NCBI RefSeq assembly: GCF_000485795.1
Contig: NZ_AXZL01000056.1
Location: 1-64,000 of the forward strand
Origin: Shewanella decolorationis S12
Lineage (GTDB): Bacteria; Pseudomonadota; Gammaproteobacteria; Enterobacterales; Shewanellaceae
Direction of reading: 5' to 3'
DNA: 64,000 bases
The notes beneath the pieces were generated by a model. That model saw nothing but the letters and a program-made list of their open reading frames with translations, did not search any database and was not told the origin of the DNA. Below are positions 23,234-42,511 of the stretch, piece by piece. The translations under genes were made by a program, and so were the position numbers. The first letter of the stretch is position 1, and every line of letters begins with the position of its first letter.

Positions 23234-24517
23234 CTATTCAATTATCAAGAATGGATGATCAAGATAGTTCGCTAGATACATTATGTAGTTGCTCGTCGTT
23301 GAGGGGAAAAAGTTATTTGCTTGGACTCCAGTTAAGTTTTTTACATATCTGAAGGGTTTTAACAAATTAGATAACAAGATGTTACTGGCTTCTTGCGGCC
23401 TTTCGCGAAGCATCACCAAAAGGTCTTCATGTTGTTTTTTGGAGTTCTTACTCCATCCAGGAGTATCTATATTATTGATAATTAGTTCGTTGCCCCCAAA
23501 CCAGGCATAAAGTCTGATAAGGCCTATATGGTCAGCAAGTTTGATCTCAACTGTCACATTATAGGAAGAGTCTGCTTCGAGATTCCAATTTGCCTCAAAT
23601 GTCACAATGCAAGAATATCCTAATATAGCTATAGGATTGTGCCATGCTATTGATTTTTCGAAATAAGTTATTCTGCTCTTCACTACTCTTGCCCAACCAA
23701 TCTTGCCTGTTTTCTTGAGTAAGCACAAATAGCGGTATGTCCGTGCTAAGGTAATTTTTTTATTTTCAACATTCCAAGTAACAAAGCTATTTCTGGTATC
23801 GTTAGCAACAAAGCTATTTGTCGCGTTCAAGAAGTCTGTGGGTAGATATTTAACTCTTCCAGAGATAGAACGCTGTGACTTATTTATGTTTTTGATTGAG
23901 CTAGCTAGTTTGCTTAATCTTTTATAATACCTCTTTTGGGCAGCAAGCTGTTCAGCTATTGCCAGTTCACGAGCCCGCTCTTTTTTAATGACTTCTTCAT
24001 CTATTCTGTTAGCTTCAGTTTTAATCTGCTGATACTGTTGCAAGTGTGGCTTAACCTGCTTTTGCATATCTTTGAGCACGTCTAGTGATAGTGGTTTTCG
24101 ATGTTCTTTCCATTTTGATACTTCGACGCAAACTCTATTGACTGCAGTTTGGTTAGTGAATACCGCAGTAGCCTCAAGGTTTTTTGTTCCTTTTCGTGTC
24201 AAATTTTGACTACCTATACTCGCAAACTCATTCGGAACGATTACACACTTTGCATGTAGTGAAGGTAGCGCATAGAGCTCAAACCCACGTTTTTTAAGCG
24301 TAATAAGGGTTTGTATGGAAGAACTGAGATTGATGAATAACTCGGCTGAAAATAACGTGTAAATATCGCATTGACCGCTACTCAAAGATGAAGTGACGGT
24401 CTCAGCAGTGCTCGAGGTTATATAAGGGGAGTAAATTTCTACAGAGGTTGCTTTTTTTAGCTCATTTTGCCATCTTCTTGTAACATTTCGGAAGAATAGC
24501 TCGTAATCCTTTTCCAT
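23234..24517 (-). CDS. phospholipase-D-fold protein, candidate defence nuclease
   Basis: A 427-residue protein. The N-terminal 150 residues have the PLD fold with one HKD-type motif: LHAKCVIVPNEFASIGSQNLT (His and Lys near residues 89-91, then GSxN). One motif per chain implies a dimer, as in bacterial PLD nucleases. A basic coiled coil follows (about 150-215), then about 210 residues I do not recognise. Stand-alone PLD proteins of this kind occur in defence islands. It is the outermost gene, 137 bp from the attachment site, and may have its own promoter downstream of a terminator at 24543-24584. Confidence 0.75.
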   Translation of the reverse strand: MEKDYELFFRNVTRRWQNELKKATSVEIYSPYITSSTAETVTSSLSSGQCDIYTLFSAELFINLSSSIQTLITLKKRGFELYALPSLHAKCVIVPNEFASIGSQNLTRKGTKNLEATAVFTNQTAVNRVCVEVSKWKEHRKPLSLDVLKDMQKQVKPHLQQYQQIKTEANRIDEEVIKKERARELAIAEQLAAQKRYYKRLSKLASSIKNINKSQRSISGRVKYLPTDFLNATNSFVANDTRNSFVTWNVENKKITLARTYRYLCLLKKTGKIGWARVVKSRITYFEKSIAWHNPIAILGYSCIVTFEANWNLEADSSYNVTVEIKLADHIGLIRLYAWFGGNELIINNIDTPGWSKNSKKQHEDLLVMLRERPQEASNILLSNLLKPFRYVKNLTGVQANNFFPSTTSNYIMYLANYLDHPFLIIE

Positions 24518-25836: not shown

Positions 25837-26169
25837 AGCTTGAACCCTTCTAAGTTATTTGACGTTAATGTCGATGTTAATTGTATGGAATACTGAGGGT
25901 TAGCTTGAAGTGATGGGCTTGTGATTGTTTGATGATACTCGGTGATAATGAGTGATATATTCATTAACCTATTCTTCACAACTTGTTTGGGATAGCTCTG
26001 GATAGTTAGTTAAACGATTCTACTCAAAAAGCTTTAACCTTAAATTATGTTAGTAGGTCGTGTTTTCAATCATAACCCTCTAACACAATTAGATTTTATG
26101 GCCTACTGCAGCAAACCTTGATATCTTCAGCATATGAATGGCAAAAGCAAGTTTTAGAAGGCACTATTG
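25837..26169. other. divergent promoter region between the NPNN/HTH operon and hsdR
   Basis: 333 bp, AT-rich, without a gene. It holds a direct repeat GTTAAT close to the NPNN side (near 25864-25882) and an AGAAGG ribosome site before hsdR. A likely control point for both cargo operons, possibly by the HTH protein. No operator copy of the 25511-25540 repeat was seen here. Confidence 0.45.
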
Positions 26170-29100
26170 ATGGGAAGCAATATTAGTAACTTCGATTTCC
26201 TTAAGCATCACGATGAACTGTTATTGCGTCTTGCACAAACAGCTGAATGGTGTTTTATACCGGACCCTAACACCACGCTTTTAAAGATGCGCCAATTGGG
26301 TGAGGAGCTAGCAAAAAACATTGCAGCTCGCGTTGGTGTGGCTTGTGGTCAGGGAATAAACCAAGTCGATTTACTTCGTAGCCTTGATTACTCTCTTAAG
26401 CTCGAACAGCGTATCAAAGATGCCTTTCATACGATACGAAAACTCGGCAATGCAGCTAATCACGATATCACCTCAAATAGTCACCGTGATGCCTTACAGT
26501 CGTTGCAAATAGGTCACGCTTTAAGTATTTGGTATCACCAGCTTTATGGTGGCGATGCGGCGAAAGGCTTTAAGCCTACCCCATTTGTAAAACCTAAAGA
26601 CCCTTCAGATGACGTTCGGATTCTCGAAGAAAAAATGCTCGAGCTAGAACGTCAACAGCAACGCACTTCCGAACGTCTTGCGGTTGCAGAATCGCTCAAG
26701 CGACTCGAACAAGAAAAGATGCAAGCCGAGCTTAAACGTGCAGAGCAAATGCAAGCCGAAAGTAAAATCTGGGAGCAAATTGCCACAGAGCAAGAAGCGA
26801 AACTCAATGAATACAAAGCCCAGATGGCTGCCACCAATCTTGAGCTGTATACCGCCTTCCAAGCTAAAGATCACCAAGCACAACAACAAGAAATTAAGCG
26901 TGTCGAAAAACTACCTTTTTATTTAGATGAAGCCGAAACCCGCATCATTATAGATAAACAGTTAAATGAAGCTGGTTGGAAAGCTGACACCACAAACTTA
27001 AAGTTCTCTAAAGGTGCACGGCCTGTCGAGAATGAAAACAGAGCAATTGCGGAATGGCCCACCAGCTCTGGTCCGGCAGATTATGTCTTGTTTATGGGAT
27101 TGACTCCCGTTGCAGTCGTTGAAGCTAAAAAAACAGCTAAGAATGTTTATAGCTCAATTGACCAAGCCAAACGTTATGCAAAAGGACTCGAAACAAAGAA
27201 TGCGTTCACAATAGAAACCTGCTGGAGAGACTTCAAAGTACCACTAACGTTTGCTACGAATGGTCGTCCATACCTTAAGCAGCTAGAACAAGAGAGTGGT
27301 ATCTGGTTTTTAGATGTTCGCGATAATAGCAACCGACGTAAAGCACTCAAAGGTTGGTATTCACCAACCGAAATCAAATTGCTTTTAAAACAAACGCCAG
27401 AGCAAGCAGAGCAAAAGCTTGATGCGATGGCCTTTGATTACGACTTAAAGCTGCGAGACTATCAAGTAAACGCTATTAAAGCGGTCGAGCAAAGTATTAA
27501 AGACGGCAAAGATCGTGCGCTGGTTGCAATGGCAACCGGTACAGGTAAAACCAAAACCTGTATAGCGTTGGTTTATCGACTGCTCAAATCTGAGCGGTTT
27601 AGGCGGATCTTGTTTTTGGTTGATCGCTCAGCACTTGGTGAACAAGCTACCAATGATTTCAAAGAAGTGCGATTAGAGCATCTGCAAACTTTTGCCGATA
27701 CTTTTGATTTGATGGGACTAAAAGACATCAAGCCCGAAGACAGTACCAAAGTTCATATCGCCACAGTACAAGGTTTGGTCCAGCGCATTTTATATCCCTC
27801 AGATAACGATACAAAACCTGGTGTTGGCCAATACGATTGTATTGTGGTCGATGAATGCCACCGAGGTTATTTACTCGACCGAGAGCTTAGTGATACCGAA
27901 ATAGTGTTCCGTGACCAAAAAGACTACCAATCAAAATACCGCTCGGTAATTGATTATTTCGACGCTTTTAAAATTGGTCTAACGGCAACTCCTGCGTTAC
28001 ATACGGTTGATATTTTTGGTGAACCAGTATTCAGCTATAGCTATACCGATGCAGTACTTGATGGACATTTAAATGATCATCTGCCGCCTGTACGCATCCA
28101 TACTAAGCTCGCCGAACAGGGGATTCACTATGAAGTGAATGAAGAAGTGAAGGTATACGATGCCGTAAATAACGATATCAAAATTTATAACACCCCAGAT
28201 GAGCTAGATTTTGATGTTTCGGAATTTAACCGTAAGGTTATGGCACCAAACTTCACCAAAGTCGTGACGAAATGGCTAATTGAAAGTGATGCGATTAATC
28301 CTTACTCAGATGCCAAAACATTGGTTTTTTGTGTCACCGATAAACATGCCGATGAAGTCGTTGAAGCCTTTAAGCAAGCCTGTGAAGACTACCACGGTGA
28401 AGTGGAAGACGACGCCATTCAAAAAATTACCGGCGCATCCGACAAACCGCTGGAAAAAATCCGTTTATTTAAAAATGACCGTCTACCCAATATAGCAGTG
28501 ACGGTTGATCTACTTACCACCGGCATTGACGTGCCCAAAATATGTAATCTGGTATTTTTACGTCGGGTAAACAGCAGGATCCTCTTCGAGCAGATGCTAG
28601 GTAGGGCCACGCGCCTATGTCCAGAAATTAGTAAAGGTCCATTTCGGATTTACGATGCCGTCGATATTTATAAACAACTCGAAAACGTCAATACCATGAA
28701 GCCTGTAGTGACTAATGTCGACATTAGTTTTACTGATCTAACGGGTGAAATGGCCAACAGCAATAACGAAGAGTTACAGACACTAGCCAAAAACCAATTT
28801 ATCGCCAAGTTACAAGTAAAAAGACGGTATTTAAGTCCTGAGCAGCAAGAAAAATTTGAAACCATTGCAGGGCAACCACCTGCGCAATTTATCAAAGAGC
28901 TTAAAACCATGTCAGCAGAGCAATTAGCAGAATGGTTTATTCATCATCCAGGCTTAGGTGAGTTGCTGGATGAAAAAGTCAAAGGTGGCTCAGGAAGCGA
29001 TCCACTGTATATCTCTGAGCATGATGACCAAGTCACCCATATCACCACAGGTTACGGTGACGGCCAAAAACCTGAGGACTATTTACGTTCTTTTAATGAC

Positions 29101-29586
29101 TTTGTGAATGCGAACAGTAACCGCTTGCTCGCAATTCAAACAGTCATTCAAGCTCCTTGGGAATTAACCCGACAAAGCTTAAAAGAACTGGCATTAGTGC
29201 TTGAACAAAATAAGTTTAGAGAACAAGATCTGCAGGTCGCATGGCATGAGGTTAAAAAAGAAGATATTGCCGCTCGTATCATTGGTTTTATCCGTCAAGC
29301 CGCTATTGGTGAAGCATTGATCCCATTTGAGCAGCGAGTTGATAACGCCTTAAATCGCATCCTTGCAAGTCAACAATGGAAAACACCGCAAATTCAATGG
29401 TTAAACACTATTGCAAAGCAAATGAAAGCAACAACCATTGTCGATGAAGCCGCATTAGAACAAGGTATTTTTCAACATCAAGGCGGGGTAAAACGGGCCA
29501 ATAAGCTCTTTGAGCAACCCATAGCGAATGTACTACTGATGTTCAATAAAGCCTTATGGCAAAACGATATCAGTAGGTCTGCATAA
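26170..29586 (+). CDS. hsdR: type I restriction enzyme, R subunit (HsdR)
   Basis: A 1138-residue endonuclease/translocase subunit of an EcoEI-type system. In order: a DUF4145-like domain (about 20-130, with IRKLGNAANHD), a coiled coil (about 145-250), the HSDR_N nuclease domain (PADYVLFMG then VVEAKK, about 300-320), an SF2 helicase motor with MATGTGKTKT (about 455) and DECHRGY (about 561), and the EcoEI_R C-terminal domain. I start at ATG 26170 rather than the TTG one codon earlier because of AGAAGG spacing. It cuts unmodified DNA after translocation and needs HsdM and HsdS. Confidence 0.95.
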   Translation: MGSNISNFDFLKHHDELLLRLAQTAEWCFIPDPNTTLLKMRQLGEELAKNIAARVGVACGQGINQVDLLRSLDYSLKLEQRIKDAFHTIRKLGNAANHDITSNSHRDALQSLQIGHALSIWYHQLYGGDAAKGFKPTPFVKPKDPSDDVRILEEKMLELERQQQRTSERLAVAESLKRLEQEKMQAELKRAEQMQAESKIWEQIATEQEAKLNEYKAQMAATNLELYTAFQAKDHQAQQQEIKRVEKLPFYLDEAETRIIIDKQLNEAGWKADTTNLKFSKGARPVENENRAIAEWPTSSGPADYVLFMGLTPVAVVEAKKTAKNVYSSIDQAKRYAKGLETKNAFTIETCWRDFKVPLTFATNGRPYLKQLEQESGIWFLDVRDNSNRRKALKGWYSPTEIKLLLKQTPEQAEQKLDAMAFDYDLKLRDYQVNAIKAVEQSIKDGKDRALVAMATGTGKTKTCIALVYRLLKSERFRRILFLVDRSALGEQATNDFKEVRLEHLQTFADTFDLMGLKDIKPEDSTKVHIATVQGLVQRILYPSDNDTKPGVGQYDCIVVDECHRGYLLDRELSDTEIVFRDQKDYQSKYRSVIDYFDAFKIGLTATPALHTVDIFGEPVFSYSYTDAVLDGHLNDHLPPVRIHTKLAEQGIHYEVNEEVKVYDAVNNDIKIYNTPDELDFDVSEFNRKVMAPNFTKVVTKWLIESDAINPYSDAKTLVFCVTDKHADEVVEAFKQACEDYHGEVEDDAIQKITGASDKPLEKIRLFKNDRLPNIAVTVDLLTTGIDVPKICNLVFLRRVNSRILFEQMLGRATRLCPEISKGPFRIYDAVDIYKQLENVNTMKPVVTNVDISFTDLTGEMANSNNEELQTLAKNQFIAKLQVKRRYLSPEQQEKFETIAGQPPAQFIKELKTMSAEQLAEWFIHHPGLGELLDEKVKGGSGSDPLYISEHDDQVTHITTGYGDGQKPEDYLRSFNDFVNANSNRLLAIQTVIQAPWELTRQSLKELALVLEQNKFREQDLQVAWHEVKKEDIAARIIGFIRQAAIGEALIPFEQRVDNALNRILASQQWKTPQIQWLNTIAKQMKATTIVDEAALEQGIFQHQGGVKRANKLFEQPIANVLLMFNKALWQNDISRSA

Positions 29587-29633: not shown

Positions 29634-31139
29634 ATGAGCACTCAAGATCTGGTCGCCAAACTATGGAACCTGTGTAACTTACTCCGTGATGATGGCGTCA
29701 CCTACCATGAATACATCAATGAGCTGACCTATTTGGTCTTTCTTAAAATGGTAGAAGAGACAGGTAGAGAAGAAAAAAATATTCCTACTGGTTACCGTTG
29801 GGCCGACTTGGAGCGTTATGACGCCGCCACTCGCCTAGAAGAGTATAAAAAGTTACTCATTCATTTAGGCTCACATGGCTCTCAAATCACCAATGCTATT
29901 TATGCCAACGCCAGCACAGTCATTCGTAAACCGGCCACTTTAAGTAAATTAGTCAGTGAAATTGATAAGCTAGATTGGTACAGCGCCAAAACCGAAGGTT
30001 TAGGTGATATGTACGAAGGCTTATTAGAAATCAACGCCGGTGAGAAAAAATCAGGTGCAGGACAGTACTTCACTCCACGAGTATTGATCAATGTTATGGT
30101 CGAATTGATGAAGCCAAGTTTGGACGATGTGATTGTGGATCCAACGGCGGGCACTGGCGGCTTTTTAATTGCAGCTCACCACTACATAGCAGAACATAAT
30201 GACATTCCGTCACTGGATCCAACCGCCTACGACAAATATCAGCATGAAACCTTTTTTGGCATGGAGTTAGTACCAGATACTCGCCGCCTAGCCATGATGA
30301 ACCTTATGCTGCACGACCTCGCAGTTGATGATGAAAACTCAGGTATTTTATTTGGTGATACGCTTTCTAATGAAGGTAAAGCCTTACCACCAGCAAGTTT
30401 AATTTTGGCCAACCCACCGTTTGGTACCAAACAAGGTGGCGGAATCCCCACCCGTGATGACTTAATCACTTACACCAGCAATAAACAATTAGCATTTTTG
30501 CACTTAATGTATTTGCGTATGTTAAAGCCTGGTGGCCGTGCCGCCGTGGTATTGCCCGACAATGTGTTGTTCGAAGGCTCTACCGGCCAAACCATTCGTA
30601 AAGATTTAATGGAAAAATGCAACCTGCACACCATTTTGCGTCTACCGACCGGTATTTTTTATGCGGCAGGCGTTAAAACCAACGTATTGTTTTTCTCCAA
30701 ACCCACAGACCCGAAACAAGACAAAGGCCAGACTAAAAATGTCTGGGTCTATGACCTACGCTCGAATATGCCGCAGTTTGGTAAACGCACGGTTTTTACC
30801 AAAGCGCATTTTGATGAGTTTTATCAAGCTGTTGACAGCGACTTAACTACTGTGGATGAAGCCGCTCGCCATGCTTTTATCGAACAATACACAAACAATG
30901 GCGGTGACCCTACAACCTGCCGCCTACGTTGCTTTAGCCGAGAAGACATCGCCAGAAAAGACGACTCGCTTGATTTAGCTTGGATCCGCGACGATAGCGC
31001 AGAAGATAGTGCCAACTTGCCAGACCCTGATGTGCTAATTAACCAAGCTTTGGAGGAAATGGCCGGTGCCATGCTGGAGCTTAAGGCTATTTTGGTAGAG
31101 CTGGGGTCAGAGGAAGAAGCGGGCGAGGTGGTGCTGTGA
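29634..31139 (+). CDS. hsdM: type I DNA adenine methyltransferase, M subunit (HsdM)
   Basis: A 501-residue N6-adenine methyltransferase. It has the HsdM N-terminal helical domain (about 1-125), SAM motif I DPTAGTGGF (about 168-176) and the catalytic NPPFG (about 260). It modifies host target sites and is the core of the restriction complex. It lies 47 bp after hsdR with TAGGTAA before the ATG, and overlaps hsdS by 4 bp. Confidence 0.95.
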   Translation: MSTQDLVAKLWNLCNLLRDDGVTYHEYINELTYLVFLKMVEETGREEKNIPTGYRWADLERYDAATRLEEYKKLLIHLGSHGSQITNAIYANASTVIRKPATLSKLVSEIDKLDWYSAKTEGLGDMYEGLLEINAGEKKSGAGQYFTPRVLINVMVELMKPSLDDVIVDPTAGTGGFLIAAHHYIAEHNDIPSLDPTAYDKYQHETFFGMELVPDTRRLAMMNLMLHDLAVDDENSGILFGDTLSNEGKALPPASLILANPPFGTKQGGGIPTRDDLITYTSNKQLAFLHLMYLRMLKPGGRAAVVLPDNVLFEGSTGQTIRKDLMEKCNLHTILRLPTGIFYAAGVKTNVLFFSKPTDPKQDKGQTKNVWVYDLRSNMPQFGKRTVFTKAHFDEFYQAVDSDLTTVDEAARHAFIEQYTNNGGDPTTCRLRCFSREDIARKDDSLDLAWIRDDSAEDSANLPDPDVLINQALEEMAGAMLELKAILVELGSEEEAGEVVL

Positions 31140-32704
31140 GCGAGTTGCCGAATGGGTGGGCGAAATGCAAACTCAGTGAGTTCAGTGTGATCGAGATGGG
31201 GCAATCCCCCAAAGGCGAATTTGTTGGTGACACTCCAATAGGACTGCCATTCTATCAAGGTAAGGCTGAATTCGGTAAATGGTACCCAACCCCCCGAAAG
31301 TACTGTAGTCAGCCAACTAAAATAGCTGAAAAAAATGACATTCTTCTGTCAATAAGGGCCCCTGTTGGCCCCACAAATCTATGTCCCGAGAAAAGTTGTA
31401 TTGGTAGAGGGCTAGCTTCAATAAGAGCATTTGAAGAAAAATCTCAAAAATACCTTATCCATTATTTTAGGTATTTAGAGCCTTGGTTAAGTGAACAAGG
31501 GACAGGTTCAACGTTCAAAGCCATAAGTGGTGGATTTATAAGAGACATTGATGTTTTAGTTGCCCCACTAAACGAACAAATTCGCATAGCAGACAAACTG
31601 GATTCAATTCTGGCCAAAGTCGACCGCGCCCAAGCGCGCCTAGACAAAATTCCCGGCATCATAAAACGTTTCCGCCAATCCGTCCTCGCCGCCGCCACAT
31701 CTGGTGAGTTAACTAGAGAATGGCGTGGAAATAAAGATGCAAACTGGGAAACCACAGTTTTTGGCGATTTAATAAAAAACGGGCCTCAGAATGGAATTTA
31801 TAAGCCTTCGTCTTCATACGGAAGTGGTACAAAGATAATACGTATTGATGGGTTTTATGATGGAAATTTGTCACCTTGGTCAACGATAAAGCGCGTTCAG
31901 TTGGATGAGTCGGAGCTTTCTAAATGGAAATTAAATGTTGACGACATTTTGATCAATCGAGTTAATAGCATAGAGTACCTGGGTAAGTGTGGTCATGTCG
32001 ATGCTCTACCAGAGGATGCAGTATTTGAGAGTAATATAATGAGGGTTGAGCTTGATAAAGCTCGCGCAATCCCTCGATTCATTAAGTATTTTCTTTCCAG
32101 CACCACTGGGCTAAGCCAGTTGAGGGCAAATGCAAAACATGCTGTAAATCAAGCAAGTATTAATCAAACAGACGTGAAGTCAGTAGAGATCCAATTACCA
32201 AGCATTGAAGAGCAAACAATCATAGTTAATAAGGTTGAGGCGCTCTTTCTTAAAGCTGATTATTTCGAAAAACAATATTCTGACGCTAAAAAACTCATCA
32301 ATAAATTAGGCCAATCTTCTTTAACTAAGGCTTTCCGAGGGGAATTAGTAGAGCAAAACGATACTGAAGAGCCTGCCAGCCAATTGCTAGCGCGAATTAA
32401 ACAGCAACAACTTGAAGCTCCAAAGGCAACCAGACAAACTAGAAAATTAGCAGCAAAACTAAGTCCTTCAGTTGATGTGGTTGAAACTGATGTTGAGTTG
32501 GCACCGCAAGAAAGTGAAATTCTTGCTCTCTTGAAAAATGCAACTGGCGAGTTATCCGCACAGCAGATTATGGATAAGCTGACCGAGAAAACCTTTGAGC
32601 AAGTCGATGCGCTTTTTACCGAGCTTAGACGCTTACTTGATAATAATTCGATTGTAAAAGTTGGATCTGGTGAAGCCTGTACTTTTAAGGCTATTAAAAG
32701 ATGA
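31136..32704 (+). CDS. hsdS: type I specificity subunit (HsdS) with C-terminal winged-helix-like extension
   Basis: A 522-residue DNA-recognition subunit. Two target-recognition domains (about 1-150 and 205-370) are each followed by a conserved helical spacer (NEQIRIADKLDSILAKVDRA and SIEEQTIIVNKVEALFLKAD). Residues about 450-522 form an extra domain (ESEILALLKNATGELSAQQIMDKLTEKT and on), which looks like a small winged helix and is absent from classical HsdS. The start is GTG overlapping hsdM; the stop overlaps the next gene (ATGA). The two recognition domains differ, so a bipartite asymmetric target is expected. Confidence 0.92.
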   Translation: MSELPNGWAKCKLSEFSVIEMGQSPKGEFVGDTPIGLPFYQGKAEFGKWYPTPRKYCSQPTKIAEKNDILLSIRAPVGPTNLCPEKSCIGRGLASIRAFEEKSQKYLIHYFRYLEPWLSEQGTGSTFKAISGGFIRDIDVLVAPLNEQIRIADKLDSILAKVDRAQARLDKIPGIIKRFRQSVLAAATSGELTREWRGNKDANWETTVFGDLIKNGPQNGIYKPSSSYGSGTKIIRIDGFYDGNLSPWSTIKRVQLDESELSKWKLNVDDILINRVNSIEYLGKCGHVDALPEDAVFESNIMRVELDKARAIPRFIKYFLSSTTGLSQLRANAKHAVNQASINQTDVKSVEIQLPSIEEQTIIVNKVEALFLKADYFEKQYSDAKKLINKLGQSSLTKAFRGELVEQNDTEEPASQLLARIKQQQLEAPKATRQTRKLAAKLSPSVDVVETDVELAPQESEILALLKNATGELSAQQIMDKLTEKTFEQVDALFTELRRLLDNNSIVKVGSGEACTFKAIKR

Positions 32705-34293
32705 AGTTAGATTACCTGATCATTCGCTCCGGCTTTAAAAACATCAGCAATTTGAAAATTGAGTTTGATGAAGGCCAATTGCTAACCGTCTTGGTGGGCC
32801 GAAATGGTTCGGGTAAATCCAATATCATCGAAGCGCTGGTCAGAATTTTCCGTGCATTAGATTTGGGCGAGCTTGCACCTTTTAGCTATGAGTTAGTTTA
32901 CTCGCTTGGTGCGGAAAACCGCATTTGGGTAAAAGTTGATGCCGACCCAGCCTACGGCAACACACCGATATCGCAGCATCAAATCGAAGTCGCGGAAAAG
33001 CTTGGCCAACATGACATGCCGATTTGGAACAAAGTATCTCTGGCCAAAGTGCAGCGTGATAAAGCAGGTCAATCCGCATATTTACCGAAACATCTTTTTG
33101 CTTATTACTCTGGCCCAAGTGACCGGCTTGAAAGCTTGTTTGTAAAACATCGCACGGATTTTTATTACCAATTGCTTAAAGACAAAGTAAAAATCGAAGA
33201 TGAAGTCAGACCACTATTTTATGCGAAACCTTATCATAGTCAGTTTGTGTTATTAGCTTTCTTTCTCAGTGGACAAAGTGATGAGGGGAGGAAGTTTCTC
33301 GCAGCACAACTCGGTATCAAGCAGTTTCACTCGGCACATTTTGTCTTTAGGAAACCATCATGGGAACGAAGTAAAACCGATGCTTTTTGGGGAGCTTATG
33401 GTGTTGTTCGGGAGTTTCTGAATCGCTTACTACCACATACTTTTGGTATGGTTAGAGCAACTAGAGAAGAAACAACCTCTTTAACCGGGAAAGGCAAAAA
33501 TAATGATTTTGTTCATGTGTATTTACCTGACTTAACTGCGTTAAATTCAACCGCTAAAGGTCTCGGTCCAAAAAACTTCTTTAAGATGCTGGAAAGCACT
33601 CTGCTTTCAGAGTTGATTTCCAGTGTACATATTAAAGTTGTACTTAATAATAATGAGATTGTGAGCTTCAGTGAGTTAAGCGAAGGGGAGCAGCAGTTGC
33701 TTACTGTGTTTGGCTTAATGCAATTTACCGCTGAATCTGATTCATTATTTTTACTTGATGAACCGGATACCCATCTAAACCCGGCATGGGCGGCAAAATA
33801 CCACGCTTTCTTAAACCGGTTTATTCCCAATAAAAACCACTGCCATATCGTTATGGTCACCCATCATCCGCTAGCTATTGCTGAACTGAATAAAGAACAA
33901 ATCCAAGTGTTGCATCGCGACTCAATTGGATTGTCATATGCCGAACAACCAGCTGAAAGCCCGATTGGTATGGGCGTCAACGGCATCTTAACCAGCGACA
34001 TGTTTGGTATGGCGACAACGCTGGATCAACACACTAGTAAAGTGATTGAAGACCGGCGGAAAATTTTAGAAAAAGATGAGCTGAATGAAGATGATAAGGC
34101 AAAACTTCGAAAGCTGAATTCATCGTTGGAACGTTTAGGATATGGATACACTCACCCCGATGAGGATTATAGGCAGTTTCTTATTGAGCGGAAAAAAGCC
34201 ATGCATGCCATGGAATTGAAATCGATCGACACCACGGAAATACGCATGCAGATTGTTCAGCAAATACTTAAAGAGCGGGGGTATTCTGTTTGA
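32701..34293 (+). CDS. AAA ATPase, Septu PtuA-like, coupled to hsdS
   Basis: A 530-residue ABC/SMC-type ATPase of the defence AAA_15/AAA_21 kind. Walker A is GRNGSGKSN (about 33-41), the signature is LSEGEQQLLTV, Walker B is LFLLDEPDTHLNP (about 350-362), and the H-loop is VTHHPL (about 385). A conserved FAYYSGPSDRLESLF segment lies near 138. The C-terminal 100 residues are charged helices. Its ATG overlaps the hsdS stop, and the HNH-like gene overlaps its own end. The pair matches the ATPase plus HNH layout of Septu (PtuA/PtuB); exact subtype not assigned. Confidence 0.8.
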   Translation: MKLDYLIIRSGFKNISNLKIEFDEGQLLTVLVGRNGSGKSNIIEALVRIFRALDLGELAPFSYELVYSLGAENRIWVKVDADPAYGNTPISQHQIEVAEKLGQHDMPIWNKVSLAKVQRDKAGQSAYLPKHLFAYYSGPSDRLESLFVKHRTDFYYQLLKDKVKIEDEVRPLFYAKPYHSQFVLLAFFLSGQSDEGRKFLAAQLGIKQFHSAHFVFRKPSWERSKTDAFWGAYGVVREFLNRLLPHTFGMVRATREETTSLTGKGKNNDFVHVYLPDLTALNSTAKGLGPKNFFKMLESTLLSELISSVHIKVVLNNNEIVSFSELSEGEQQLLTVFGLMQFTAESDSLFLLDEPDTHLNPAWAAKYHAFLNRFIPNKNHCHIVMVTHHPLAIAELNKEQIQVLHRDSIGLSYAEQPAESPIGMGVNGILTSDMFGMATTLDQHTSKVIEDRRKILEKDELNEDDKAKLRKLNSSLERLGYGYTHPDEDYRQFLIERKKAMHAMELKSIDTTEIRMQIVQQILKERGYSV

Positions 34294-35162
34294 GATTTAT
34301 TGATCCCGCATTAATTCCTGCGTGCAAACCTCACGATTGGGATGTCAAAAGTGTGCAGTGGTTAGCCAGAGTTGCTGCTGCTCAAGACAAATCCGACGAA
34401 ATCAAGAAGCTTAAAAATCCCTGGAAAAAGTTCAAGGTGAACTTCGCAAATACCTTTGGTGATAAGTGTTGGTATACAGAAGCTGCTCGCATCGGAACAA
34501 CCAATGATGTTGATCATTTTCGTCCGAAAAATGCAGTTAAAGACCAATTTGGACGACATGTTGCCCGTACAAATGCTGCAGGTGTTGTCGAGTACGCAAA
34601 TTATTGGTGGTTGGCTTATGAACCACTGAATTATCGCTATTCATGCATATTTAGCAATAGGGCCAATGGAGATGGAGGAAAACAAGAGTTTTTCCCATTA
34701 GAAGATGAGACAACTCGAGCGTGGACCCCTTCTTGTCCTTACATTAGGGAAGATGTCTCATTCCTAGATCCATGTAACAGTAATGATGTTCAGTTAATTG
34801 CTTTCGATGTAACAGTGGGCATGGCTGAGCCACGATTTAGCGAACAGCAAGATCCAAAAGCGTTTAGGCGTTTTCAACTAAGCAAGAAATACTACAACCT
34901 CAATGAAAAGACAATTGTCGACGCGCGAATGGAAGTGCTCAGCGAGCTAGCCAAAGATCTCAATCTTTTAGAGTTAACTTGGAGTTTTGATCCAGTTATT
35001 AAAGCGTCAATGCAGCCTGCATTAGATGCTGCGAAACAGGGAATTGTTAATAAATGCTCGCGCAAAGCTAAATTCTCGGCGGCTGCCGTTGCCCTGGTTA
35101 AAACTAAACAAGCAGAGCCTTGGCTTGCCGATGTTTTACCTTTACTAGATCTTTCCCCTTAA
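34290..35162 (+). CDS. HNH-like nuclease, Septu PtuB-like partner
   Basis: A 290-residue protein. The key stretch is KCWYTEA (about 59-65) followed by DVDHFRPK (about 73-80), the beta-beta-alpha metal core seen in HNH proteins of Septu and of some retron effectors, here with CWYTEA in place of the more usual CAYCE. The TTG start overlaps the ATPase stop (TTGA), so it should be made in fixed ratio with the ATPase. It would act as the toxic nuclease released or activated by the ATPase; this is inferred from the family. A change of the usual zinc Cys to Thr is notable. Confidence 0.75.
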   Translation: MRFIDPALIPACKPHDWDVKSVQWLARVAAAQDKSDEIKKLKNPWKKFKVNFANTFGDKCWYTEAARIGTTNDVDHFRPKNAVKDQFGRHVARTNAAGVVEYANYWWLAYEPLNYRYSCIFSNRANGDGGKQEFFPLEDETTRAWTPSCPYIREDVSFLDPCNSNDVQLIAFDVTVGMAEPRFSEQQDPKAFRRFQLSKKYYNLNEKTIVDARMEVLSELAKDLNLLELTWSFDPVIKASMQPALDAAKQGIVNKCSRKAKFSAAAVALVKTKQAEPWLADVLPLLDLSP

Positions 35163-35264: not shown

Positions 35265-36134
35265 ATGAAAAATCAGACGCTGAAAATAGCAGACCTCGCT
35301 GGCATTGAATATTACGGGACCGCAGGGATAACAACTCGGTGCTTAACTGCACTCACTATGGTTATTCAAGCTGGTGGTGAGATCATCACAAGAGCCTTCT
35401 TGCTTTCCGACGTGGATAGTAGTTCCAATTGCGGCACGCATTGCTTGTTATTGTGGCCAGAATCAAGTGACCCCATAGTCATTAAATCAGGTTTTGCTTC
35501 TGGTTATCTTGGTGAAGGCCCAAGAGGGCTATCCAGCGCGCTGCAGCTTCTGATTCGCCACAATATCGAAATTAAAGAATACGCAGTCGATGCAAATTTT
35601 ATCCAAAGAGCCAATAGTTCATGTTTGACACTAGCCGATTTAGCTATGTTCGAAACACTGCAGCCAATAAGACCTGCACGCTATTACGACTACATCCTGC
35701 TTAGAGAAGAACAGCGCTTTTACAATGACAATCTAGTCAAAGTGCTCTTTGTTAAAAACATTCCTTTTTCACTCATTGATAACCGCATTATGGATTTAGC
35801 CATTGATTTCAGTAATAACCCAGATGCCAATCTAATGACTTGCTATCGCCGTTTAGAAGACATTATCCGAAGAAGAACGGGTTTGGAAGGGGAAAGCGGC
35901 TCTAAGTTATTTTCGCAGGCATTCCTTGGCAACAATGCTCCGCTGTACTGGCCTGAGTTACCGGAAGCAGAGGCAAGAGGCCGAGCAGGCCTTTTTACCA
36001 GTATTTACATGGCTTATCGCAATAGTCGTGCACACAAAGAAAACGTAACAACGTTAGATGATGCAATAAGAGAGGTTTTACTGATAAACCAATTGTTTAT
36101 TCTTGAAAATGAAGCCAAAAGCCAAGAGAACTAA
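35265..36134 (+). CDS. two-part protein with C-terminal Ymh (TIGR02391-like) domain
   Basis: A 289-residue protein. Residues about 175-285 match the Ymh/TIGR02391 fold found in mobile elements and defence loci (RRLEDIIRRRTGLEG, then GRAGLFTSIYMAYRNSRAHKE). Residues 1-110 form a separate beta-rich part with SNCGTHCLLLWP and SGFASGYLGEGPRGLSSALQLL; I do not recognise its function. It has its own ATG with GGGATG upstream, 102 bp after the HNH-like gene and 92 bp before mcrB. It may be a stand-alone defence gene or a regulator or accessory of either neighbour. Confidence 0.65.
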   Translation: MKNQTLKIADLAGIEYYGTAGITTRCLTALTMVIQAGGEIITRAFLLSDVDSSSNCGTHCLLLWPESSDPIVIKSGFASGYLGEGPRGLSSALQLLIRHNIEIKEYAVDANFIQRANSSCLTLADLAMFETLQPIRPARYYDYILLREEQRFYNDNLVKVLFVKNIPFSLIDNRIMDLAIDFSNNPDANLMTCYRRLEDIIRRRTGLEGESGSKLFSQAFLGNNAPLYWPELPEAEARGRAGLFTSIYMAYRNSRAHKENVTTLDDAIREVLLINQLFILENEAKSQEN

Positions 36135-36226
36135 CATCTAATTGAGTACTGAAGGTTAAATCTGCTCTCACTTAAAGCTTGTGTGGTTAAACGCTTTAGG
36201 TTTGAAATAGGGTTACAGAGGAACTA

Positions 36227-38974
36227 ATGGCAAGATATTGCGGTAATCAAAATTCTGCTCCGTTGATAAAAGTTGCACAAGATTTTCAAGCCCAATCTTT
36301 AATTGCTGGCAACTCATTGCTGACGAATAAGCCAATCTGGGGGCTGAAAACCATTGATGAACTAGTAAAATATTTCGTTGATAACTTAGATGAAGGTGAA
36401 GGCGATTTTTTTTCTAAACTAGAAACTCAGCTAAAACCTGCCTCGGCAGACGCCAAGATATTATTAGCAGAGATGCTTTGGTTTATGTCCCTATGCCCTA
36501 GCAATGTTGGACCTTCCTCTAAACGCGATACAGTAGAACGTGTTTTTGCCTTTTCTGGCAAAAACCTAGCTGATACTGTTCCTGTAGATGTTCAAAAAGA
36601 ATACCTTTCTGATGAGGTGCTAACCGGAATAGGTAAAACGGGGGCGGCATATAACACTGGCCGTTGGCGTGAGTTAGTTTATTTTATTCGCTTATTAACT
36701 GAATTGTTTAAATTAAGTGCCAGTGAGCGCTCAACCTTACTTGCCAATCACGAGGCATTTTCAACGTGGTTAGAGCTTATCCCTGAAAACAGCCAACGAC
36801 AGTTTCGCCACATGCTCTTGTATCTGTTTTATCCTGATTCGCAAGAGCGTATTTTTGGTGGTAGCCATCGCCAGTCACTACTCACTAAATTTGCCAACAT
36901 CAGCGCTTCACAATTTAAGAAAATGCCTGCTCATGATGTGGACAATCAATTATTAGATATTCGCAGAAAATTTGAGCAAGAATATGGCACTCAAGAACTT
37001 GATTACTATGTTGAGCCGCTTAAATCTCGTTGGGATAGAGAGAATGTTTCAACCACTATTGCTGAGCAAAATGCTGAATATGAGAGTAAGGATAAAACTA
37101 TGGCGTCCAACAATAACAACACTAGTTTAAATCAAATCCTTTATGGTCCTCCTGGTACAGGCAAAACCTACAATACGATTAATCGTGCATTACAAATCGT
37201 AGCTCCGGAGTTCTACCGTTCGAATAAAGATAACAGAGTTGAGCTCAAGACACATTTCGATGATCTAGTTGCTAAGAACCGTATTGGTTTTGTCACCTTC
37301 CACCAGAGCTTTAGTTATGAAGATTTCGTCGAAGGGCTTAGAGCCAATAGTGATGAAGCAGGTCAGGTTAGTTATGATCTTGAGGATGGTATTTTCAAAC
37401 GTATGTGTGCAGCTGCAAATGCTAAACCTATAATGGCTAAATCTCAACGTCGAGTTGATGTTTCTGGACGCAAGGTTTGGAAGATGTCGCTAGGCGATAC
37501 TCTCGGTGATGATGCATATATTTATCAACAATGTATTGAAAATAATTATGTGCTGTTGGGTTACGGTTATAACGTTGATTTTAGTACTTCAAAAGACAGG
37601 AAAGGCGTGATTGATGCCTATAAATTCAACGGTATTGAGATAGAAAAAGAGAGTAACGACTACAGAGTAACATCGGTTCAAAACTTTAAAAATGTAATGT
37701 CTATCGGCGACTTAATCGTTATTTCTGATGGTAATCGAAAATTTAGAGCGATTGCCGAAGTGACTGGTGATTATCAATATGATCCTACGGCCATTGAGGA
37801 TGATAGTTACTCGCAGATGCGTAAAGTTATTTGGCACCGCATATACGAACCTTCTTTACCTGTAGATGAGTTGTTTAATAAGAACTTATCGCAGATGACG
37901 TTGTATCGTTTACGAGAGCCCGTATTAGATGTAGTAAAGCTTCAAGATATGCTTCTTGGTGAACAGACTAAAGATGGAACTTTACCGAGTGTCGCTGTAG
38001 GCACTCAAATTTCATCATATATGGTTGAGTCCATATCTGATGAAATTATCGGTTTGAGAAAGCCAAATGGCGCTTTATTACCTATGCCGAGGATTATTAT
38101 CGATCAACTAGTTTCTTTAGTGAAACTCAATCTAATATCAGTTGATGATATACGTTCAAAGAGAGTGTTTGAGCGTATTATTGATTCGGACATGGAGAAG
38201 TTCATTATAAATGGTTATCCCAATGTCTTGGCTCCCTTAGTCGAATCGATTCATCATTATGGTCTAGATACAAAGGCACTAACCTCTTCCGATAATCGGG
38301 TCTTGATTATCGACGAAATTAATCGCGGCAATATATCAAATATTTTTGGAGAGTTGATAACACTTATCGAGCCAAGTAAGCGTACCGGTGGTTCAGAGTC
38401 ATTGTCGGTTAAATTGCCGTATTCTAAAGAGTCATTCTCCGTCCCTTCTAACCTTTACATTATTGGAACAATGAACACCGCTGATAAGTCCTTAGCTCAA
38501 GTAGATATTGCACTTCGTCGTCGTTTTGAATTTGTTGAGATGATGCCTAAGCATGAGTTGCTTGAAGGAATTGATATTGAAGGGATCAACATCGCTAAGT
38601 TACTCGAAGTCATAAATCAACGTATTGAACTAATTTATGACCGAGAGCATACCATCGGCCACAGTTTCTTTTTACCCTTGAAGTCAGAACCAACCATTGA
38701 ACGCTTAGCACGTATATTTGAGCTAGAAATATTGCCTTTACTTGAGGAATATTTCTTTGAAGATTGGGAGCGGGTGGGGCAAGTGCTTGGTGATCAGTTT
38801 AAGAGCACCAATCCAGAGTTAAAGTTTATAGAAGAAAAGTATACAGATGCTTCAGTATTGAAGCTGATGGGCAGTGACTGGTCACAAGATAGTATTCGGC
38901 CATATAAACGCAATATGGCAGCATTAACTAACCCAGAAGCATACATAGGTATTTATGAATCGCCTCAAGGTTAA
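36227..38974 (+). CDS. mcrB: McrB-type AAA+ GTPase with inserted EVE-like domain
   Basis: A 915-residue motor of a type IV (modified-DNA) restriction system. Residues 1-270 are an unrecognised N-terminal domain, probably the modified-base reader. The AAA+ core starts with LYGPPGTGKTYN (about 305-316). A separate beta-rich domain of about 150 residues (405-560; YVLLGYGYNVDFS, VMSIGDLIVISDGN, FRAIAEVTGDY) interrupts the core and resembles an EVE/PUA-like base-reading domain. Walker B is VLIIDEINRGNI (about 692) and the McrB GTPase signature appears as MNTADKS (about 750). AGAGGA precedes the ATG. It overlaps mcrC by 20 bp. Confidence 0.88.
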   Translation: MARYCGNQNSAPLIKVAQDFQAQSLIAGNSLLTNKPIWGLKTIDELVKYFVDNLDEGEGDFFSKLETQLKPASADAKILLAEMLWFMSLCPSNVGPSSKRDTVERVFAFSGKNLADTVPVDVQKEYLSDEVLTGIGKTGAAYNTGRWRELVYFIRLLTELFKLSASERSTLLANHEAFSTWLELIPENSQRQFRHMLLYLFYPDSQERIFGGSHRQSLLTKFANISASQFKKMPAHDVDNQLLDIRRKFEQEYGTQELDYYVEPLKSRWDRENVSTTIAEQNAEYESKDKTMASNNNNTSLNQILYGPPGTGKTYNTINRALQIVAPEFYRSNKDNRVELKTHFDDLVAKNRIGFVTFHQSFSYEDFVEGLRANSDEAGQVSYDLEDGIFKRMCAAANAKPIMAKSQRRVDVSGRKVWKMSLGDTLGDDAYIYQQCIENNYVLLGYGYNVDFSTSKDRKGVIDAYKFNGIEIEKESNDYRVTSVQNFKNVMSIGDLIVISDGNRKFRAIAEVTGDYQYDPTAIEDDSYSQMRKVIWHRIYEPSLPVDELFNKNLSQMTLYRLREPVLDVVKLQDMLLGEQTKDGTLPSVAVGTQISSYMVESISDEIIGLRKPNGALLPMPRIIIDQLVSLVKLNLISVDDIRSKRVFERIIDSDMEKFIINGYPNVLAPLVESIHHYGLDTKALTSSDNRVLIIDEINRGNISNIFGELITLIEPSKRTGGSESLSVKLPYSKESFSVPSNLYIIGTMNTADKSLAQVDIALRRRFEFVEMMPKHELLEGIDIEGINIAKLLEVINQRIELIYDREHTIGHSFFLPLKSEPTIERLARIFELEILPLLEEYFFEDWERVGQVLGDQFKSTNPELKFIEEKYTDASVLKLMGSDWSQDSIRPYKRNMAALTNPEAYIGIYESPQG

Positions 38975-40241
38975 CGATGTCATCGTTAGGGAGTTTGCTC
39001 TTTTAACTAATGAAGGCAACAACCGAAGCATAGATTGTCACTCAATACCCAAGTCTGCGTTTGAGTGGCTGCTTGCTAATGGGGTGAGTAGTGGTGAAAA
39101 GCAGCGGGAGCTAGTTAAGGTTAAACGCTACGGGAAATCAATCGCATTGCAGGTGGTGAACTTTGTTGGTGTGCTTGAGACGCCATGTAGAACCCGTATT
39201 GAGATTTTACCTAAAACGACTACAAATGAGTGTGAGCCCGAAATGGCTCGCAAAATTTTGCTTAAAATGCTGGCTAGCGTAGATAAACTTAAGTTAGAGG
39301 AGTTTCAACAGTCACATTTACAGTTACTAAAGCAACCTCTCTATGAGGTGTTGATTGCATACTTTCTCAAGTCTGTCGCTAAGCTGGTAAAGCAAGGTAT
39401 AAGAAGTGAGTACCAGCGCGTAGAAAGCGAGTCCTCATTTCTAAAAGGCCAGTTACTGGTAGCTAAACAACTAAGACAGCGACCTGGTCGTCAGCATTAC
39501 TTTCAAGTTTCTCACGATGTGTATCACGCTAATCGGGCAGAAAACCGCTTATTGCATTCATCATTAAAGCAAGTGTTTAAGTGGGCTAGAACGAGTGCTA
39601 ACCAGCGTCTAGCAAGGGAATTATTATTCATATTTAGTGACACTGAAGAGTCTGCAGATTTTGCTCATGACTTTAGGCTTTGGACAGATAACAGAAGCCT
39701 TGCTCATTATCGACCGCTTAAACCATGGTGCGAGCTTATTTTGAGCTATCAATCACCAGTTGCGATGGTTGGAAATCATGGTGGGTTATCTTTCTTATTT
39801 CCGATGGAAAAACTATTTGAGCGCTATGTAGCTAAGCAACTATCTGCGCAACTGCCACCAGCATTAAAATTGAAGGAACAGGTCTCGAGTAAAAGTCTAA
39901 CCCATCACAATGGCCAGGACTGGTTTAGGCTAAAACCGGATATAGTGGTTTATGATAAATCGCGTGTGGTCACAGTGATGGATATCAAGTGGAAGTTGCT
40001 TGATGCTTCACTTGACACCACAAAGGATAAATACAACTTGAGTCAGTCAGATTTGTACCAGTTGTTTACTTATGGTGAGAAATACCTAGAAGGTCATGGT
40101 GAGTTATATCTGATTTACCCTAAGCATGCTAGTTTTACTGAGCCTTTAGGGCACTTTGAGTTCAAACCAGGTTTGATACTACATGTTGTGCCTTATGATC
40201 TTGAATCTGATGAAGGCCTTACTAATCTAGAGGTTTCGTAA
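38955..40241 (+). CDS. mcrC: McrC-type nuclease subunit
   Basis: A 428-residue partner of McrB with an N-terminal beta domain that contacts the McrB hexamer and a C-terminal PD-(D/E)xK nuclease: LKPDIVVYD, then VMDIKWK (about 326-346). McrBC cuts DNA with modified cytosine using GTP. It starts inside the end of mcrB, so it is translationally coupled. Last gene of the defence run. Confidence 0.92.
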   Translation: MNRLKVNDVIVREFALLTNEGNNRSIDCHSIPKSAFEWLLANGVSSGEKQRELVKVKRYGKSIALQVVNFVGVLETPCRTRIEILPKTTTNECEPEMARKILLKMLASVDKLKLEEFQQSHLQLLKQPLYEVLIAYFLKSVAKLVKQGIRSEYQRVESESSFLKGQLLVAKQLRQRPGRQHYFQVSHDVYHANRAENRLLHSSLKQVFKWARTSANQRLARELLFIFSDTEESADFAHDFRLWTDNRSLAHYRPLKPWCELILSYQSPVAMVGNHGGLSFLFPMEKLFERYVAKQLSAQLPPALKLKEQVSSKSLTHHNGQDWFRLKPDIVVYDKSRVVTVMDIKWKLLDASLDTTKDKYNLSQSDLYQLFTYGEKYLEGHGELYLIYPKHASFTEPLGHFEFKPGLILHVVPYDLESDEGLTNLEVS

Positions 40242-41023: not shown

Positions 41024-42511
41024 CTAACATATCCACTGGCTAAATGCTTTCTCTCGCTCGGTCTCTGCTTCTGCCACTTTTGAAGTAGCTGGTTCCGGAT
41101 TGGCCAAAAACATGAAGCAGTATGTATCTGACCTATCAGGGGATTTAATATTGTGCTTTTCTCGCATTTCCTTTTTGGCGCATACAACCCATTGCCCTAG
41201 CTCGTTGAGGTGAACAGGTAAGCGGGATATCTGGCTTTTAGTTAGCTCAGAGCTATCAATCTTCATACGGCCGGTCTTTATCGCATCGCGCATCATGATG
41301 TGACTATAAGCTCGCTGATTGACGAAACGGCTTTTTGCTTCATTGTTAAAAACAGGCTTCCCCCAGCGGATTTCTTGAACGTTTAAACCGAGCTCTACGG
41401 CAATTTTAACAGTTGAGAAGCCAACTCCGTCACCATCAATTAATACACTGACATTTTGGCTCTCATAGGGCTCTAAGTGCCTTTTTATTTCGTAGGCAAA
41501 GTCTATAGGATCTATGTCAGCACGCATTTCAATAATACTATGCGAGACCACCTGCCGAGTATTTGGTGAGTCTAGAGACACTTTGCATATGTTGATAACA
41601 GATTTGTCCCTGCCGTTACCTACGTCACATGCAGCCACCCATCCCCAATTACCATCGACAAGTAAAGGGTGGTTTCTTGAGGAACGTTCACAATCAGTCC
41701 TGCTAAGTAGGTAGCCGTCCATATTATCTGGAAACTGACCTAGTACTTTAACTTGATATTCAGGTGAGTCTTCGCCTCCATAAGAAATCAGTTTCTCACC
41801 GATAAACTCGGGTGTTACAAGAGGTGATTCCTCAGAATTTAAAGTAATAGCTGTCCAGATACCGCTAGGGTTGTCGATTGTTTTAGCTAACCTATGGTGG
41901 GTATCGTAAAAAAATCCTGCTGTACGTGTAGGTTGGCTTAATAAGCACATATTGTTATTTGCTTCTGTTAATGCGGAGCTTAACACGTTGAGAGCTTTGT
42001 CCGATAAACCACTCGCCTCATCGACGACCACTAGATAAGTATGACAATGCTCACCAGCTAAAGCCTCTTCATTACCTTGACGAGCTGATTTAGCAATACA
42101 ACTCCATATTCCCTTGTAACCAATGGCGTAAAACTCTCGTTCATTCAGTTCAAAGTAGTTTTCTATCCATGGCAAGTTTCGACAGAGTGTTTTGAAGTTG
42201 ATTTTAAGGTACTTCCATATGACATTACGCACTTGAGCTGCGTTGTTGGCAACCACTACAACTCTGCTTTCAGGATTAAGGATTATAAATGCTAGGATAA
42301 TAATGCTCGTCATATCACTCTTGCCAGTACCATGCCCGCTTGATACAGATACCCTTGCACCTTGTACTTGAATGGCCGAGATAATTTGTCTTTGTTGCCA
42401 AGTTGGGCTTTTTCCTGCTAATACAGAAGCAAAGCCTACCCAGTCGTCTTGGAACATGGCTAAGAGCTCTATGTAGTGAGCATCGGACAATATAGTTTTT
42501 GGCTTTTTCAA
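41024..42511 (-). CDS. terminase large-subunit-like ATPase/nuclease
   Basis: A 495-residue protein with the TerL layout. The ATPase has Walker A VSSGHGTGKSD (about 56-66), Walker B YLVVVDEAS (about 159-167), and a coupling motif near LLSQPT (190). The C-terminal RNase-H-like nuclease has Asp in ACDVGNG (296), LIDGDGVG (359-361) and SPDRSDTY (near 467). Phage terminases pump DNA into capsids, but no portal or capsid gene is in this island. The TTG start overlaps the upstream gene (TTGA). Alternatives: a packaging protein of a satellite, or a TerL domain reused for defence. Confidence 0.78.
   Translation of the reverse strand: MKKPKTILSDAHYIELLAMFQDDWVGFASVLAGKSPTWQQRQIISAIQVQGARVSVSSGHGTGKSDMTSIIILAFIILNPESRVVVVANNAAQVRNVIWKYLKINFKTLCRNLPWIENYFELNEREFYAIGYKGIWSCIAKSARQGNEEALAGEHCHTYLVVVDEASGLSDKALNVLSSALTEANNNMCLLSQPTRTAGFFYDTHHRLAKTIDNPSGIWTAITLNSEESPLVTPEFIGEKLISYGGEDSPEYQVKVLGQFPDNMDGYLLSRTDCERSSRNHPLLVDGNWGWVAACDVGNGRDKSVINICKVSLDSPNTRQVVSHSIIEMRADIDPIDFAYEIKRHLEPYESQNVSVLIDGDGVGFSTVKIAVELGLNVQEIRWGKPVFNNEAKSRFVNQRAYSHIMMRDAIKTGRMKIDSSELTKSQISRLPVHLNELGQWVVCAKKEMREKHNIKSPDRSDTYCFMFLANPEPATSKVAEAETEREKAFSQWIC

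Follow-up and report, generated by a model that had tools for sequence, protein, structure and literature searches.

A Septu pair coupled to tailed HsdS subunits in type I loci: a possible hybrid of methyltransferase and PtuAB effector

Among the described systems closest to the one considered here, PrrC is a single protein and MADS is an eight-gene system. Septu combines the ATPase PtuA with the HNH protein PtuB; Septu EcB88 cleaves tRNA-Tyr and depends on its Walker and HNH residues (PMC13096335), and the PtuAB pair of retron-Eco7 is reported to be toxic, to be restrained by its retron partner and to lead to tRNA-Tyr loss (PMC11555353). The PADLOC paper names Septu type II (the retron form) and the Hma operon, which is frequent with Septu type I, and Septu inside Hma systems is cited in PMC12255303. 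Dyads of an ABC ATPase and a nuclease have been reported with restriction-modification-like systems (Krishnan 2020, as cited in PMC12839542), and the trigger of Septu is left unexplained in the portion of the Septu literature consulted. Here, a ptuA-ptuB pair that directly follows hsdM and hsdS of a type I locus was analyzed in Shewanella decolorationis S12 (contig NZ_AXZL01000056.1, positions 1 to 64,000; this whole stretch of 64,000 nucleotides is referred to as the window). From sequence comparison, we give an even chance to the proposal that the type I methyltransferase (HsdM2-HsdS) carries an attached Septu effector, in which HsdM-HsdS(wH), with a winged-helix (wH) tail on HsdS, would act as the sensor and PtuAB as the effector, beside or instead of HsdR. 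The locus comprises the following features.

26167..29586, + strand: hsdR, type I restriction subunit of the EcoKI-like family (NF008521, 1465.9 bits against a cut-off of 729).
29634..31139, + strand: hsdM, type I DNA methyltransferase subunit (motif IV NPPF intact; closest relatives 78-83% identical).
31136..32704, + strand: hsdS, specificity subunit of 522 amino acids (aa), GTG start (PF01420 twice, 4.2e-26; GTGA overlap with hsdM).
32477..32704, + strand: C-terminal winged-helix tail of HsdS, residues 448-522, a proposed PtuA docking or regulatory domain.
32701..34293, + strand: ptuA, OLD/SMC-like ABC ATPase, ATG start (PDLC00293, 1.1e-191, residues 1-526).
34290..35162, + strand: ptuB, HNH-family nuclease, TTG start (PDLC00343, 2.3e-76).

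As proposed in a sequence-only reading of this DNA, hsdM, hsdS, ptuA and ptuB form one unbroken coupled chain, in both the open reading frame (ORF) listing and the sequence, through three 4-base overlaps, namely GTGA between hsdM and hsdS, ATGA between the hsdS stop and the ptuA ATG at 32701, and TTGA between the ptuA stop (34293) and the ptuB TTG at 34290. The TTG start is supported by M1 of PtuB, which belongs to the residues conserved in at least 90% of 43 aligned relatives. Upstream, 47 bases separate the end of hsdR from the start of hsdM. The window thus carries HsdM and HsdS with an intact methylase motif as well as HsdR.

By family profile, PtuB fold and intact residues, the pair, which had been called Septu-like, is a real Septu pair, with a PtuA-type ABC ATPase and a PtuB HNH protein directly downstream. 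The PADLOC profiles cover both proteins nearly full length (PtuA, 1.1e-191; PtuB, 2.3e-76); among PADLOC families, the ATPase scores highest with PtuA, and PrrC is not among the matches listed (two of these lists giving the best 25 of 91 and the best 25 of 135 families). Pfam recognizes only generic AAA/ABC domains in PtuA and gives no match in PtuB. In NCBIfam, PtuA scores highest with TIGR04435 ('restriction system-associated AAA family ATPase'), at 133.6 bits far below the cut-off of 300. Walker A, signature and Walker B, whose residues are invariant in the family alignment, are intact in the window PtuA, and C60, E64, H76 and N114 are among the residues invariant in PtuB across the 43 aligned relatives. 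The AlphaFold2 (AF2) model of PtuB, built from 43 sequences (mean pLDDT 96), matches E. coli Septu PtuB (8eea_G) at Z 16.7 and retron I-A PtuB folds at Z 12.0 to 16.5, and no unrelated fold exceeds Z 5.7. No reverse transcriptase was found among the window proteins scanned with Pfam; ptuA is preceded by hsdS and ptuB is followed by a Hypoth_Ymh protein. A search of phages yielded no PtuB match. The HNH core CWYTEA...DHFRPK stands as read from the sequence, while the idea that CWYT marks a distinct HNH subfamily was abandoned, as 71 relatives vary between C, S and T at the second Cys position of CxxC (CWYCE 26, CWYSE 24, CWYTE 16, others 5).

To place the pair among genomes, a PtuB alignment was compared with one genome for each of 84,980 species, and the best 80 of 248 related stretches were taken, giving 81 loci together with the window; some scan loci share contigs with an order-level set described below. 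Because the scan motif was PtuB, hsd genes played no part in the selection, and the result holds for this PtuB clade only. A same-strand hsdS lies directly upstream of ptuA in 71 of the 81 loci. With L047, L054, L103 and L110, which reach a contig edge, omitted, 73 of 77 readable loci have hsdS either adjoining ptuA or fused to it, so the association with hsd genes is general rather than local, and homologues do not mostly occur without hsd genes. In L080, HsdS, the tail and PtuA form a single ORF, a natural fusion, and in L111 an HsdS-HsdM ORF lies directly upstream of ptuA. The linked loci span Pseudomonadota, Bacteroidota, Bacillota, Actinomycetota, Chloroflexota, Cyanobacteriota and others. 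The hsdS-ptuA-ptuB (S-A-B) block stays constant while the positions of hsdR (R) and hsdM (M) shift, for example R-M-S-A-B or R-S-A-B-M. The overlap with hsdS seen in the window also recurs across genomes: in 71 linked loci (70 fetched and the window), a spacing of -4 or -1 occurs at 34 S-A and 52 A-B junctions, and a spacing within -14 to +26 at 64 S-A and 63 A-B junctions, the outliers being partly artefacts since the first start codon was taken as the ORF start. In L054, the last 4 bases of ptuB are shared with an ORF (2278-3429) that encodes a Shedu SduA C-terminal domain and reaches the contig end.

Within the window's order, a PtuB search of 394 genomes gave a match in 15, from which 10 neighbourhoods were taken. 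L022, in which the region upstream of ptuA is masked (8000 of 18001 bases), was set aside; type I genes adjoin ptuAB in all nine unmasked neighbourhoods. One of these, L027 (G000:C72:134105-135390), lies in the window's own genome, where another type I locus holds a further PtuAB pair whose PtuA is truncated. The HsdS tail is clear in seven of the nine, weak in L029 (E 0.02) and not found in L027. Three E. coli records from nine matching genomes (ET490, NCTC11121 and the environmental river-water strain KFu019) carry M-S-A-B, annotated in this order as 'N-6 DNA methylase', 'restriction endonuclease subunit S', 'AAA family ATPase' and 'hypothetical protein'; with ptuB labelled 'hypothetical protein' by RefSeq, the system is easy to overlook. 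A search of E. coli with L077 for near-identical copies gave no match. Among three of 13 matching plasmid records examined, a Pantoea plasmid has the gene order S-A-B-M.

A different picture was obtained for the other PtuB class, TIGR02646, for which 20 of 32 listed places were fetched and 11 held a PtuA-type ATPase of other clades (L226, a clade member near a contig start, was omitted). In these 11 pairs, hsdS is adjacent once (L218), without the tail, and L215 has an HsdR-like ORF nearby and no hsdS match. This low frequency, the cross-phylum linkage to hsdS while hsdR and hsdM positions vary, the existence of an HsdS-PtuA fusion, the absence of HsdR where hsdM-hsdS are kept, and a tail confined to PtuAB loci with one exception in the searched sets all speak against PtuAB being an independent Septu that only shares the operon. 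Such a pair would occupy the slot after hsdS as a convenient place for defence genes, and the tail would serve HsdS alone. There is precedent for embedding, since DarTG2 (PMC12255303) and TgvAB (PMC11411939) are reported inside type I loci and TgvAB protects alone, less than the whole cluster (PMC11411939), and L117, L122, L136 and L113 show other ABC-ATPase and partner pairs in the slot behind a tail-less HsdS. Weighing both sides, we consider an independent Septu improbable.

The HsdS subunits linked to PtuAB end in an extra domain of about 75 residues after a variable linker, a key feature that had escaped the sequence-only reading. With leave-one-out profiles, in which the tested locus and tails more than 40% identical to it were excluded from training, the tail was detected at E < 1e-3 in 66 of 71 linked HsdS, and it is present in all six complete records (three E. 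coli, three plasmids). As a control, 60 neighbourhoods of HsdM relatives were picked independently of PtuAB from a longer list. PtuB was not found in these 60 loci, which were also scanned with a PtuA profile built free of the L080 fusion, and the tail was found in none of their 67 HsdS ORFs (best E 0.75 at the same scale), of which 58 are at least 380 aa and nine are shorter, some being fragments too short to show a tail. The control HsdS stop at or before the start position of the tail, and HsdS length (at least 380 aa) fails to separate the sets (medians 541 linked vs 472.5 control, with overlapping ranges). Even the two closest HsdM relatives, 81% and 83% identical (L112 and L113), go with a tail-less HsdS and lack PtuB. 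A tail search of 398 genomes of the phylum listed four strong matches at E < 1e-8: the window, two other HsdS followed by PtuAB (one in G440, probably the same genome as L048, the other with a split ptuA), and L203. A strict rule that the tail means PtuAB was ruled out by L203.

The AF2 model of the tail has a winged helix-turn-helix topology at a modest pLDDT of 70, and Foldseek returned mostly winged-helix proteins, regulators being nearest and none below E 0.001. No HsdS appeared among the matches to solved structures, where the best tail-profile matches were PscE and IHF-alpha. Profile positions 26-58 resemble the IHF-alpha sequence, IHF-alpha being among the best-scoring PDB matches. In genome searches, the same model positions also attract many short ORFs (about 100 aa), which are probably IHF-like false positives.

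Distance correlations over 63 loci suggest that the tail follows PtuA more closely than the rest of the methyltransferase. The correlation of tail with PtuA is r 0.79 (partial given HsdM 0.71), compared with 0.51 for the HsdS body (partial given PtuA 0.21) and 0.50 for HsdM (partial given PtuA 0.18), and the bootstrap difference between the tail-PtuA and tail-HsdM correlations is 0.16 to 0.41. For reference, HsdM and HsdR, a known partnership, reach r 0.94 (31 loci). The tail thus belongs to the PtuAB block, whether by contact or by joint transfer. These data bear on a further explanation, in which tail-ptuA-ptuB is mainly a mobile cassette recombining at the hsdS end of type I loci and the tail is a by-product of the junction. 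The tail-less HsdS and missing PtuB of L112 and L113 and the end of control HsdS at or before the tail start would fit a cassette, but a by-product is unlikely to remain a conserved domain with a shared motif across phyla, as is found here, so we regard this explanation as highly improbable.

If PtuAB is an effector attached to the methyltransferase, it may act beside HsdR or instead of it. HsdR was searched for on either strand with the same profiles in both sets, after omission of 4 of the 60 control loci that lack an HsdS longer than 330 aa. Nearly all control type I loci gave a match nearby (55 of 56), but fewer than half of the linked loci did so (33 of 70). The HsdR profile was built from the HsdR matches of both sets; an earlier profile gave the same union total of 110, with 38 vs 37 linked loci without HsdR (same strand only). 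In 28 of the 37 linked loci whose fetched flank shows no HsdR, the sequence extends for 4 kb or more on each side. Among 28 searched genomes of HsdR-less loci, HSDR_N had no match in 10 and a match somewhere, whether near the locus or not, in 18; the same search found it in 30 of 31 genomes of HsdR-containing loci, several being near the cut-off and not necessarily the locus's own HsdR. A second query, the window HsdR, which represents one family only, revealed an HsdR remnant about 5 kb upstream in L038. By the two queries, no HsdR match was found in nine genomes (L046, L048, L049, L052, L066, L068, L077, L085 and L090). A blanket statement that all 37 loci lack HsdR anywhere was ruled out by the upstream flanks of about 5 kb, the L038 remnant and the 18 genomes with HSDR_N.

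On a quick PtuA tree with contig-cut loci omitted, the presence of HsdR switches 12 times; on the starred branches alone, the HsdR group still needs 9 or more changes, and some long branches leave parts unsure. In the complete records, hsdR was not found in the fetched flank of the three E. coli loci, the Pantoea plasmid gave no HsdR match, one Pseudoalteromonas plasmid has hsdR, and another shows none but is readable only about 1.1 kb upstream of hsdM. NPPF is kept in all 66 HsdM examined, including 32 of 32 from HsdR-less loci, and methylation therefore seems to matter even without HsdR.

These results bear on the earlier suggestion that the pair guards or backs up the HsdRMS complex. The hsd association and the coupling agree with it, whereas guarding the complete HsdRMS cannot be the general role, because 37 of 70 linked loci are without HsdR nearby vs 1 of 56 controls and nine genomes have no HsdR match; the pair may guard M-S instead of HsdR. 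In a PrrC-like scheme of this kind, HsdM-HsdS would keep PtuAB inactive, and phage anti-restriction proteins would release it by binding the methyltransferase core or stripping it, leading to tRNA or DNA cleavage and aborted infection. The scheme would also work in HsdR-less loci, because anti-restriction proteins such as Ocr, ArdA and Stp can bind M-S without R, and the HsdS tail (66/71) and the L080 fusion fit it. Precedents include the activation of EcoprrI PrrC when T4 Stp blocks the enzyme (PMC12707154), the neutralization of retron PtuAB toxicity by msrmsd and the reverse transcriptase, that is, a partner-restrained PtuAB (PMC11555353), and tRNA-Tyr as a target cleaved by Septu EcB88 (PMC13096335) and depleted by retron-Eco7 PtuAB (PMC11555353). 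HsdM catalysis, however, is not required by a guard as such, yet NPPF is kept in every HsdM examined from HsdR-less loci. Because methylase motifs are kept without HsdR, a methylation-guided attack is favoured, and a guard of this kind is considered somewhat unlikely.

Taken together, the recurrent pairing, the HsdS tail, the L080 fusion and the retention of hsdM-hsdS where HsdR is absent suggest that PtuAB is an effector attached to the methyltransferase via HsdS, for which we infer a physical complex, a signal, a trigger and a nuclease substrate. The winged-helix domain, on its variable HsdS linker, would hold PtuAB on the methyltransferase and pass on a signal, and HsdM-HsdS would read both the target sequence and its methylation state. 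On methylated, own DNA PtuAB would stay silent, and unmethylated target DNA would activate the ATPase PtuA and the HNH nuclease PtuB, which would then attack DNA or tRNA. In the window, where HsdR is also present, one reader may serve two effectors, and in many relatives PtuAB seems to be the sole effector. With a little less than even confidence, this may be extended to a widespread hybrid immunity, HsdM-HsdS(wH)-PtuA-PtuB, in which the methyltransferase tells self from non-self, the HsdS adaptor plugs in a Septu effector beside HsdR or in its place, and PtuAB is a general plug-in effector aimed by different readers (HsdS, a retron reverse transcriptase, and perhaps LRR, SIR2-WD40 or FHA-kinase proteins).

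Several observations weigh against an attached effector. Four clade members lie in other contexts: L053 has no proper PtuA, L055 (7049-8413) has an FHA-kinase upstream of PtuAB, L063 (2209-5394) has SIR2-like and WD40 parts fused to PtuA, and L069 (7653-10004) has an LRR fused to PtuA; from the last three, PtuAB may plug into various sensors. The tail profile misses L050, L057, L059 and L070, which form one divergent branch, as well as L038. The C72 pair, with its truncated PtuA, sits in a type I locus with a tail-less HsdS, and L203 (8677-10557) is a tail-bearing HsdS that lacks PtuAB and differs at its 3' end from the relatives L100 and L107, possibly a deletion scar. The controls for HsdS and HsdR were drawn from the order to which the window belongs and the linked loci from many phyla, so the sensitivity of the HsdR search in distant groups is less certain; upstream, the flanks of the linked loci measured only about 5 kb. 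The distances of all parts correlate to some degree, and joint transfer of the tail-ptuA-ptuB block may explain the co-divergence, because the tail is contiguous with ptuA in the DNA. Finally, the site after hsdS is also a general insertion slot, because other ABC-ATPase and partner pairs occupy it downstream of a tail-less hsdS in L117 (9069-11932), L122 (1827-4678) and L136 (8745-11571), and a MAD3-like and TIGR04435-like set does so in L113 (112-4957). The partner proteins of 385-399 aa in L117, L122 and L136 had no NCBIfam or Pfam match at the limits used. Among the occupants of this slot examined, only PtuAB goes with the tail, L203 apart. As a separate observation, the ends of HsdS in the divergent branch (L050, L057, L059 and L070) look winged-helix-like by eye only.

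The surroundings of the locus in the window hold further genes. Downstream of ptuB (35265-40241) lie a Hypoth_Ymh-domain protein, a McrB-like AAA protein with a weak EVE-domain match below the cut-off, and McrC; the McrB-like and McrC genes probably form a modification-dependent restriction system, the second of this island. An ORF at 41024-42511 on the minus strand resembles a phage terminase large subunit, as judged by eye and not by profile, and prophage DNA may adjoin the defence island. Upstream of hsdR, a PLD-like domain protein with weak DrmC matches is encoded on the minus strand (23234-24517).

If the attachment of PtuAB to HsdS is real, the effectors directed by type I specificity subunits are not limited to HsdR, full defence systems may be hidden among the 'orphan' type I methylases without hsdR, and Septu gains a defined sensor with known chemistry (sequence and methylation), which makes its activation directly testable. 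The literature search, within whose reach Krishnan 2020 did not fall, found no description of Septu with a tailed HsdS in the sources it covered. The bare operon may already be in print, and what we claim as new, subject to Krishnan 2020, is the tail, its specificity, the HsdS-PtuA fusion and the HsdR count.

Compared with known systems, the locus resembles EcoprrI-PrrC in having an ATPase-coupled nuclease within a type I locus, and differs in its two proteins, its extra HsdS domain and the many loci without HsdR nearby. MADS likewise has a specificity subunit (MAD5) and an ABC-type ATPase (MAD3) in one system, with matches here below cut-off, whereas the NCBIfam MAD3 model matches only 2 of 38 PtuA at 1e-10. 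All 38 PtuA scanned match TIGR04435, whose name already ties the family to restriction systems, at 1e-10 or better; the L117, L122 and L136 ATPases reach 173-188 bits with this model, also below the cut-off, and differ in their partner protein and tail-less HsdS. Retron I-A (retron-Eco7/Ec78 and Ec83; 'Septu type II' in PADLOC) shares a PtuAB effector module regulated by a partner and the PtuB fold (Z 12.0-16.5), and NF041760 matches 33 of the 38 PtuA, the window PtuA being below cut-off; the partner is a type I methyltransferase here, and a reverse transcriptase with msDNA in the retron. Septu itself (8ee4/8ee7/8eea) has the same PtuA and PtuB families, with the PtuB fold (Z 16.7) and the ATPase and HNH residues kept. 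The pairs described here differ from it in a PtuB of 290 aa vs about 240, in the second Cys of CxxC, which is often S or T, and in their near-constant partnership with HsdM and a tailed HsdS.

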